Notes under the pieces: generated by a model
Told to the model about the DNA's origin: nothing
Database searches by the model: none
What the model saw: the letters and a program-made list of their open reading frames with translations, nothing else
Made by a program: the position numbers and the translations under genes
Assembly: GCA_026692865.1 (NCBI GenBank)
Contig: JAPLNI010000025.1
Coordinates: 124,001 to 188,000 of the forward strand
Direction: 5' to 3'
Length of the DNA: 64,000 bases
From: Planctomycetota bacterium
Lineage (GTDB): Bacteria; Planctomycetota; Planctomycetia; Pirellulales; Pirellulaceae
In this document: positions 5,682-56,255 of the stretch, piece after piece
Layout of the letters: each line of letters begins with the position of its first letter
How positions within the stretch are numbered: position 1 is the first letter of the stretch

Positions 5682-5891
5682 GGTTGGTGTTCTTTTTGTA
5701 AATGGGAGAGGTATTAGGGTGGCATGAAAAAACTGAGCTAATATCGCTAACCACGGGTGTTGATTTTGCTAAAGCCTGCCATTAAGCACGTAAGGCCACG
5801 GCTCACGATAAACTTCATATTCATCAGCCTAAGTCTGGGTGAGGAAAAATTAAATTTGTAAAGGTCGCTGAGATTAATTGTGTTAAACCAA

Positions 5892-22224: not shown

Positions 22225-22278
22225 ATTGCTGGCGCCTTCGAAAAAACGTGGCTAGGTGAGAAGTAGAAGATGCTTTGG

Positions 22279-22369
22279 GCCGCTGGCCTTAGCCGCGTTA
22301 TTGGTTGTTAGACGTTGTTGCGCAAGCGAGTGGTGAGTCGAGCAAACTCGGCTAGCGCCTCAAGCTCAG
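22279..22369. repeat. Intergenic palindromic repeat, family 1, copy A
   Basis: The arms are GGCCTTAGCCGCGTTA (about 22285-22300) and AAACTCGGCTAGCGCC (22344-22359), separated by a loop containing TGCGCAAGCGAGTGGTGAGTC. Copy B at 54619-54701 has the same arms and a recognisably related loop (TGCGCAAGCG.GT.GT.AGTC). The motif GAGCCG...GCGCTAGCC also forms the arm of the element inside tilS. Non-coding; between nrdJ and a convergent sulfatase gene. Confidence 0.65.
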
Positions 22370-40306: not shown

Positions 40307-41497
40307 ATGATTGAGAGAAAGATACTCACGCGATGGCCTATCGAACGATGGTCGAACTTGACTGTCGTTGCTGGCTGCAGTGGTGGTGCCGATTCGACCG
40401 CATTGTTGGTTGCTCTTCATCGATTATGTCTACCAACAACAACGATTGTGGTTGCGCACTTCAATCACAAGCTTCGCGGGGCTGAAACCGAGGCCGATGC
40501 GTCCTTTGTGCGAAATCTAGCGGAACGTTTGCAGCTCCAGCTAGTCGAAGGACAACCCGGAGTTTTCCCACAAAAAACTGAGCCGATAGCGCTAGCCACG
40601 GGTAGCGGAGGTACCGACTTTCCATCTGAGAGACAATCCACACCCGAGGCTAACGCCTACGGCTCAGGGAAAGAAAGTTCTTCATCAATCCAGCCTAAGT
40701 CAGGCGTCGAAGAAACAACCACCGAAGGGCAATTGGTAGATGAAGCTTCCCTTCGTGGGATACGTTATCAATTTCTAGAACGCACTGCCTTGCAACTCGG
40801 AGCACGTTATGTTGCTGTCGGCCATCACGCCGATGATCAAGTAGAAACCGTATTGCATAATCTGTTTCGCGGATCTGGATTGTCAGGTCTTCGAGGGATG
40901 TCCGCATTTCGAGGCCTGGGGAAGGATCTTGTTCTCGTTAGACCGATGATCGATGCGTGGCGAGAGGAAGTGATCGACTATTTGAAGTCTCATCGCCAGT
41001 CATTTCGTAGTGACAGTAGCAACGCGAGCGAATCGTATACGCGTAACCGAATTCGCAATCGGTTGCTTCCACTCATTCAAGAGCATTATGGTCGTGACGT
41101 TCGATCTGCTGTAGCTAACGCTGCCGATTTATTGGGCGATGTATTTGTAGATGTAGACCTACAATCAAAGCGATGGTCTTCTGAGAACCTAGTGCATCTG
41201 AATGAGCAACAATTCAGCATCCCGTACCCAATTAAAGCATCGCCCGCATGGCATATCGTTCAACAGTCGATCGTCAATGAGTATCATCGTCGTGGATGGT
41301 CTCTTGGAGGCTACAGTCGTGCGCATTGGCATGCGTTGCAAGCTTTCTTAAGTGGCAAACATGCATCTACCAGTGCAGGCATGTCGATGCTGCCCGATCA
41401 CGTTACTGTTCGAAAGACTGCCGATGGTTTCGTCTTCGAACGTATTACGACCAGAGACGTCTTGCCACCGGTCGTTCGTGTTGCTGAGTCGGATTGA
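40307..41497 (+). CDS. tilS: tRNA(Ile)-lysidine synthetase with a repeat-derived insert
   Basis: Modifies C34 of tRNA-Ile2 to lysidine so that it reads AUA; essential. PP-loop VAGCSGGADSTALL at 21-34, then HFNHKLRGAETEADASFVRNLAERLQL and GHHADDQVETVLHNLFRGSGLSGLRGM. The core is N-type TilS (about 396 aa with a short C-terminal part). Between LVEGQPGVFP (about 79-88) and DEASLRGIRYQFLE (about 145) there is an insert of roughly 55 residues, which family members lack. About 30 of them (91-121, EPIALATGSGG...PEANAYGSG) are encoded by a palindromic repeat at 40578-40667. The 3' end overlaps the convergent rhomboid gene by 53 bp. Confidence 0.94.
   Translation: MIERKILTRWPIERWSNLTVVAGCSGGADSTALLVALHRLCLPTTTIVVAHFNHKLRGAETEADASFVRNLAERLQLQLVEGQPGVFPQKTEPIALATGSGGTDFPSERQSTPEANAYGSGKESSSSIQPKSGVEETTTEGQLVDEASLRGIRYQFLERTALQLGARYVAVGHHADDQVETVLHNLFRGSGLSGLRGMSAFRGLGKDLVLVRPMIDAWREEVIDYLKSHRQSFRSDSSNASESYTRNRIRNRLLPLIQEHYGRDVRSAVANAADLLGDVFVDVDLQSKRWSSENLVHLNEQQFSIPYPIKASPAWHIVQQSIVNEYHRRGWSLGGYSRAHWHALQAFLSGKHASTSAGMSMLPDHVTVRKTADGFVFERITTRDVLPPVVRVAESD
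40578..40667 (+). repeat. Palindromic repeat embedded in frame in tilS (family 1, copy C)
   Basis: The arms are CTGAGCCGATAGCGCTAGCC extended by ACGGGT (40578-40603) and its imperfect reverse complement (40642-40667, reading ACCCGAGGCTAACGCC then TACGGCTCAG). 21 of 26 positions pair across a 38-nt loop. The element is 90 bp, a multiple of three, with no stop in the used frame. A related copy in the same reading frame lies in the gene at 55551-55910, and the arm motif recurs in the intergenic copies A and B. Confidence 0.7.
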
Positions 41498-54618: not shown

Positions 54619-54701
54619 GAGCCGCCGGCGCTAGCCGCGTTAGTGGACGTTCCTGCGCAAGCGGGTAGTTAGTCTTTTGAACTCGGCTAGCGCAGGAGGC
54701 T
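54619..54701. repeat. Intergenic palindromic repeat, family 1, copy B
   Basis: GAGCCGCCGGCGCTAGCC followed by GCGTT (54619-54641) faces AACTCGGCTAGCGC (54680-54693). GCGCTAGCCGCGTT pairs with that right arm at 13 of 14 positions. The loop TGCGCAAGCGGGTAGTTAGTC matches copy A (22279-22369) closely. It lies between the ThuA-cytochrome gene start and the TatD-like gene stop. Confidence 0.65.
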
Positions 54702-54704
54702 TCG

Positions 54705-55550: not shown

Positions 55551-55910
55551 TCAGTTCGCAGGGAGTTGAAACTGCTGCATCCAGTCTGGTGTGTAAGGCC
55601 GACTCAAGAGCTCCTGGATACGTCGCGTTTTGTCAGGTAGTCTGTCGCTTAAAATAGCGATAGCGTTTTGGATTTTTTGATAGGACGGATCGGAATAGAC
55701 GGCATTACCTGAGGAGGCGCTAGCCTCGGGTGACGCATCGCTACGTGGTGGAACGCCAGAACCCGTGTTTAGCGTCGACTGCTTAGCGTGTGCTTCTGCC
55801 GAACTAGCGGCAGCCCGATCGATTCGGTCCAAGACAGCCGCGACCTCGATAATCTTCGCACGGGCGATCAGATAGTCGTTTTGCAGAATTTGTTGTGGTG
55901 ATCTGACCAT
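55551..55910 (-). CDS. Small unknown protein with a repeat-derived segment (119 aa)
   Basis: Not recognised. From ATG 55910: a helical N-terminus (VRSPQQILQNDYLIARAKIIEVAAVLDRIDRA), a Ser/Ala-rich middle (about 38-70), and a helical C-terminus (KIQNAIAILSDRLPDKTRRIQELLSRPYTPDWMQQF). The middle, residues about 45-68 (TLNTGSGVPPRSDASPEASA), is encoded by a palindromic repeat related to the one inside tilS. Bracketing helical parts look conserved and the repeat looks like a tolerated linker. The frame is open to 56087, but the extra part looks non-coding. Followed by the TatD-like gene, which suggests a joint function. Confidence 0.7.
   Translation of the reverse strand: MVRSPQQILQNDYLIARAKIIEVAAVLDRIDRAAASSAEAHAKQSTLNTGSGVPPRSDASPEASASSGNAVYSDPSYQKIQNAIAILSDRLPDKTRRIQELLSRPYTPDWMQQFQLPAN
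55708..55776 (-). repeat. Palindromic repeat embedded in frame in the gene at 55551-55910 (family 1, copy D)
   Basis: GGCGCTAGCCTCGGGT (55716-55731) and ACCCGTGTTTAGCGTC (55761-55776) pair at 12 of 16 positions. Read in gene sense it gives CTAAACACGGGTTCTGGC...CACCCGAGGCTAGCGCC, alignable with the tilS element CTAGCCACGGGTAGCGGA...CACCCGAGGCTAACGCC. Both give peptides of the form L-x-T-G-S-G ... P-E-A-x-A-x-(G)-S-G. Confidence 0.65.
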
Positions 55911-56255
55911 GAGAGAATCATACGGAAGATGGCAGGTGAGACTCCTCATTTTACTTGTGTATCTGATTTTGTTTAGGTACTCAACCTGAAATCGGAAGTT
56001 TTCGGAAGTAACCCAAGGCAAATCAAGCGGCTTTGCAATGGAAAAGTGGTACGACTTGCCCTGAATCGCGTACCACTTTGCGTTCAAGATACACCCGTCA
56101 CTAAGGTGTGTTGTGGCGTCGCGTAAACCGTAGGAATCGGTTAAAATTTCAGGGTGAGCAGCCTCCCACTGGAGGCTCGAATTCCGAATGAAATCGGCGG
56201 CCCAGATCGTGACCTTTTAGAAGCGACGGGCGGACCAACTTTTTGAAGGCATCTA
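55911..56255 (+). promoter_or_regulatory. Upstream region of gyrB
   Basis: About 345 bp between the divergent small gene and gyrB. It contains a perfect 7-bp hairpin, AGCCTCC/GGAGGCT with a 4-nt loop (56160-56177), probably in the gyrB leader, and AAGG 7-8 nt before the gyrB ATG. No dnaA, recF or origin-type DnaA-box cluster was noticed. Confidence 0.45.

Follow-up and report, generated by a model that had tools for sequence, protein, structure and literature searches.

The essential tilS gene, which encodes the tRNA-Ile lysidine synthetase, is located on the forward strand at 40307..41497 of the analysed 64,000-nucleotide stretch of planctomycete DNA (the window). Its 396-residue open reading frame (ORF) matches TIGR02432 and PF01171 and constitutes the sole full-length TilS match in the genome (G000). 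An earlier note described a 90-bp palindrome at 40578..40667 (+), with 26-nt arms forming 21 pairs, free of stop codons and encoding TilS residues 91-121, all of which was verified on the sequence. The palindrome is a head-to-head REP doublet read in frame. By motif match, arm A (type AT..A) lies in sense orientation at 40580..40601 (+) and encodes EPIALAT, and arm B (type TA..T) is inverted at 40644..40665 (-); the linker is of the GDA...SDRQ type and the spacing is 64. The RNA of the insert region is predicted to fold with z = -5.8, and 0 of 200 shuffles folded equally well. As the earlier note had proposed, tilS was compared with a close relative, the sister species G001, which is the one other species of this genus compared here. 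Its TilS gene has no insert and is 162 nt (54 codons) shorter at this position, the remainder being 82-87% identical. While the 90-bp palindrome as such is correctly described, the whole feature is therefore larger and includes a right tail of 27 nt (40666..40692, +), of which the last 13 nt (40680-40692) form the right terminal inverted repeat with 10/13 identity to TGGGCTGATGAAA. At the place of the left end (40564..40579, +) the terminal repeat is decayed (5/13). An imperfect direct repeat, composed of GTCGAAGGA (40544..40552, +) and, 162 nt downstream, GTCGAAGAA (40706..40714, +), may be the trace of a target duplication, as the distance equals the length absent from the sister gene; its halves lie outside the expected ends of the element, which leaves the target duplication of this copy ambiguous. 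The insert had been placed after the PP-loop domain. However, the PF01171 and TIGR02432 matches are each split into two stretches around it and solved TilS structures align on both of its sides, so that it lies in a loop inside this domain.

The window contains further copies. A related element in the same reading frame of another gene, as claimed earlier, does exist at 55708..55785 (-) within the ORF 55551-56087 (-), in the same sense frame, but it is a degenerate doublet with 5 mismatches per arm and the ORF is a weak gene call (coding score 6.9). The arm motif was also said to occur in intergenic repeats; copies are indeed present at 22277..22368 (+) and 54619..54703 (+), yet both doublets belong to a divergent class, the arms of the latter ending CGCGT. 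A decayed intergenic copy of the element with the 77-bp core, showing 5 arm mismatches and a right tail ending CATCAGCC, is found at 5735..5829 (+).

The genome-wide search for the arm motif suggested in the earlier note yielded 392 copies at up to 2 mismatches in G000, compared with 4 for a reversed-pattern control. At up to 1 mismatch, 154 copies were found in G001 and 172 in G027, a genome of another genus; in most of 60 relatives the motif is rare or absent. Neither an insert universal among relatives nor a lack of further copies, the two outcomes considered there to speak against a repeat element, was thus observed, the sister being without the insert and further copies numbering in the hundreds. 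A chance origin of the repeats is ruled out by the motif counts relative to the control and by the fold relative to shuffles. Arms frequently form head-to-head pairs (75 pairs and 52 singles in 1.14 Mb). Within the 22-nt arm, positions 8 and 19 covary in 146 copies (TA 76, AT 38, CG 13, GC 5, the rest being wobble TG in 6 and non-pairs in 8) and thereby pair in 138 of the 146 with four Watson-Crick types. Each arm can fold alone as CCG-n-b-GGC-GCTA-GCC-b'-CGG. As positions 8 and 19 pair within the arm and mismatch between the arms of a typical pair, the unit is a single, REP-like hairpin; the long palindrome as unit was rejected on the same grounds, position 7 also mismatching between paired arms.

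A Y1_Tnp gene in G000 (C24:48051, HUH motif NHVHVVV) carries arms on both flanks. Its closest relative (G020 C1:1437864, 59% identical) is likewise arm-flanked, as is a related RAYT gene of Planctomycetes bacterium K23_9. This position ties the arms to a family of putative RAYT (HUH) transposases. A GTAG or CGTC tag before the hairpin is absent, the arms beginning with GAGC, and they are therefore named REP-type and kept outside the GTAG and CGTC super-families. In the draft genome G027, which holds 172 arms, no match to a RAYT gene was obtained; this genome contains many single arms of one type, and its RAYT gene may have been lost or may lie in an unassembled part. RAYT-like genes of other planctomycetes (L122, L123 and L130) are flanked by different, related hairpins (GAGCCGGAAGCGTCAGCGACGG, TAGCCCGCAGCGTTAGCAAGGG), which suggests that REP and RAYT types change together.

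Listing the copies with their flanks revealed that the conserved sequence extends past the palindrome. The consensus element comprises 120 bp, i.e., TGGGCTGATGAAACCT, a 77-bp doublet and AGGAAAAATGCCCTTTTCATCACCCCA, and is bounded by 13-bp terminal inverted repeats, which match perfectly in the best copies and lie at a fixed distance from the arms. Exact copies of the terminal repeat adjoin an arm in 18 of 19 cases; the exact 77-bp pattern had no match in the genome contigs and a looser pattern retrieved 40 loci. Exact 9-bp direct repeats were detected at C26:35528 (GTCCGAGTC), C58:199362 (CCCTGTGTC) and C25:70343 (CAGGCGGAC) and a repeat of 8/9 at C38:20431, while a match of at least 7/9 is reached in 0.4% of random pairings between flanks of different copies. 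In the sister, the site of C26:35528 lacks the element, has a single GTCCGAGTC and is shorter by 129 bp, and the site of C23:68798 is also 129 bp shorter, the raw computed length differences having a constant excess of one base that is seen as 1 at equal-length sites. Element and target duplication together account for 120 + 9 = 129 bp, equalling 43 codons, and of the six frames of the element solely +1 is open (GLMKPEPMALATGFDFATICPIAPEASAYGSGKMPFSSP). An autonomous partner was found neither around exact terminal repeats nor around DDE_Tnp_1 loci (the assembly of G001 being incomplete); as no insertion sequence with matching ends was detected, the element is named MITE-like. It is specific to this lineage, combining a REP doublet with a MITE-like element, and tilS carries an old copy of it. 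Tandem copies occur as well. In one 459-aa ORF (L096, G000 C45:9450-9784), three in-frame copies follow each other at an exact spacing of 129 bp (43 codons), so that copies of a mobile element form a protein repeat, and an intergenic array (L073, G000 C26:202883-203219) consists of three copies at 130-bp spacing with the same flank co-amplified.

Genes were called by our own ORF and codon-usage predictions, not taken from annotation. On this basis, 91 of 186 arms in G000 and 25 of 44 in G001 are genic and all 116 are read in one frame. The fractions are sample-based: the 91/186 (49%) stems from a larger, partly targeted sample, and contiguous stretches that were not picked for genic copies give 29/83 (35%). 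Use of a single frame follows from composition: the other sense frames are closed by a TAG within the arm or by the TGA of the conserved T-GAG, and the opposite orientation by TAG in arm B. The spacing of all 33 genic pairs is congruent to 1 mod 3; with the commonest spacing of 55 excluded, this holds for 16/16 genic vs 4/22 intergenic pairs (Fisher P = 2e-7), a frame and spacing result that is partly conditional as open frames help to define the genic class. The comparison with the sister is independent of this definition: nine sites are common to both species in frame, six are empty in G001, and the length differences at the compared sites are multiples of three. Doublets of the spacing-64 class, to which the tilS copy belongs, are genic in 16 cases vs 1 intergenic, as would be expected if genes shield copies from decay and intergenic ones are lost.

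Among the host genes are tilS, ileS, polA, purL, mfd and hrpB as well as those for PxpC, CusA, CcsB, an inositol monophosphatase and FPP synthase, the last with two inserts. The farnesyl diphosphate synthase gene (L100, G000 C22:2508-3683) contains two separate in-frame doublets. Across seven well-aligned shared inserts dN/dS, computed by hand from per-locus counts, is ~0.64 vs 0.11 in the flanks of the same genes; if two misaligned loci are added, the values are 0.70 and 0.18. In most shared inserts, synonymous divergence (dS) falls below that of the flanks, several-fold so in several, which points to arms that are homogenised or conserved at the nucleotide level, as though under constraint as DNA or RNA. 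The insert peptide is loosely constrained while the frame is kept, and the genic copies look like tolerated selfish insertions.

The genic habit differs between genera. In G027, 1 of 30 arms is genic, and in Candidatus Laterigemmans, Dive96_bin2.49, M_MetaBat.1, M_MetaBat.57 and K23_9 together 1 of 38 doublets, with four further doublets overlapping a gene end. In this genus, 54 of 109 doublets are genic (Fisher P ~3e-8 vs the other genera, run with 1/37), and H1_MAG_00040, which is apparently identical to G001, shows 6 of 8. Within G000, the RAYT-flanking doublet class (spacing 72-76) comprises 1 genic and 18 intergenic copies vs 22 and 22 for the 77-bp class (P = 6e-4). Both contrasts indicate that the genic habit is linked to the composite element that this genus carries in frame; the extragenic location of REPs holds in the other genera and fails for this element.

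Most probably, the tilS insert derives from an old insertion of a non-autonomous mobile element, which has spread in the genus, is built around a REP-doublet core and is tolerated in frame. The core consists of head-to-head REP hairpins of the kind that flanks a RAYT (IS200-like, HUH) transposase gene. In its best-preserved form the element is the 120-bp unit with 13-bp terminal inverted repeats that duplicates 9 bp of its target upon insertion, as the empty and occupied sites show, and the size of this duplication would point to a DDE-type transposase acting in trans. Insertion in the open orientation and frame adds approximately 43 codons of a Pro/Ala/Ser/Gly-rich linker and leaves the gene intact: since 129 bp is a multiple of three and one frame is free of stops, such an insertion does not break the gene, for which the frame data and the sister orthologues without insert provide direct support. 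Insertions in other frames would meet TAG or TGA and be removed by selection, while survivors occupy positions at which essential and other proteins tolerate them, which in TilS is the loop inside the PP-loop domain. Maintenance extends solely to the open frame and a length in threes, the peptide being weakly constrained. With a coding density of 0.825 and 1/6 of the frames tolerated, at most ~44% of copies are expected to be genic, provided that insertion is random and all copies are equally detectable; since 35-49% are observed, most insertions in the correct frame seem to survive. Clear terminal repeats are lacking in many genic copies of the spacing class to which tilS belongs, and some may therefore have arrived as bare doublets by another route. 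One further-reaching possibility, which we regard as doubtful, is that the element evolved for coding DNA, i.e., that a REP doublet was captured into an element whose length and duplication together come in threes, that its single clean frame was selected, and that genes became a habitat in which repeat segments are added to essential proteins.

A different origin would be that ordinary, BIME-like REP doublets moved by a RAYT transposase landed in genes, the terminal repeats and the duplication being incidental. The arms flanking RAYT genes fit this explanation, as do genic copies without terminal repeats and the empty site of C26:46213, which is just 90 bp shorter. It is nevertheless unlikely, given the exact 9-bp duplications and the conserved outer repeats at a fixed distance from the arms; IS200-type HUH enzymes are, to our knowledge, not known for target duplications, the RAYT-flanking class itself is nearly absent from genes, and the REPs of other RAYT/REP genera stay outside them. 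It is considerably less probable still that selection keeps the insert peptide in many proteins as a functional module such as a linker or an interaction segment. Such a role could explain nine sites common to two species and a spacing class that is nearly all genic (16 to 1), whereas the relaxed dN/dS of the shared inserts compared with their flanks, the unrelated host proteins, the sister lacking several inserts and a peptide without Pfam match argue against it. That the insert is cut from the RNA or skipped by the ribosome and hence absent from the protein could be imagined from the strong hairpin predicted for the transcript, but is barely conceivable: a removed or skipped element needs neither an open frame nor lengths in threes, yet every genic arm is read in the same open frame, and lengths differ solely in threes within genes but not between them.

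Compared with known systems, the element resembles the Rickettsia palindromic elements (RPEs), palindromes that occur between genes and in frame in many unrelated genes with the peptide being tolerated (PMC10969869). Size, palindromic nature, presence both in unrelated genes and between genes, one fixed frame and peptide tolerance are alike, so that the element works like RPEs, and the analogy drawn in the earlier note holds well to this extent. It differs in sequence and phylum and by its REP/RAYT-type hairpins, terminal repeats, 9-bp duplication, 129-bp insertion length and a genic habit that, among the genomes compared, is confined to this genus; phylum and REP/RAYT association make homology to a described RPE family unlikely. 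Intragenic REP singles and dimers were reported in Opitutus terrae, in Rickettsia conorii (RPE-4, RPE-6) and in others, most of them in Opitutus terrae, encoding 20-30 residues also within DNA repair and tRNA-related genes (Di Nocera et al., 2013; PMC3733652). The copies described here are alike in these traits; however, the REPs of that study have a GTAG or CGTC tag and lie mostly between genes, while here the arms begin with GAGC, the doublet is carried by a composite element with its own ends and the genic share is much larger. As in REP/RAYT systems with BIMEs, head-to-head hairpins flank a RAYT gene and have many genomic copies, but REPs usually lie outside genes, which also holds for the related genera tested. 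Bacterial MITEs and the enterobacterial RU-1, RU-2 and RU-3 are non-autonomous and have occasional translated in-frame copies (PMC10969869; PMC2759123). The element is similarly below 500 bp and non-autonomous, with terminal inverted repeats, target duplication and some in-frame copies; in contrast to those mainly intergenic elements, its length and duplication come in threes, one frame is used and a third to half of its arms are genic.

As intragenic REP dimers have already been described for Opitutus terrae and as RPE-4 and RPE-6, the kind of insertion is known; new, as far as the searched literature extends (mostly outside subscription journals), are the composite with an insertion length in threes, the scale and the comparative context. 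So far, palindromes that code for protein segments were a peculiarity of Rickettsia and a few further bacteria, their means of spread being unclear. Here, the same outcome is met in a different phylum and with a readable anatomy, namely a likely hairpin origin (REP/RAYT), defined ends and a target duplication, to which empty sister sites and related genera with hairpins outside genes are added. Thereby, the entry of mobile DNA into essential proteins without breakage becomes testable by strain comparison.
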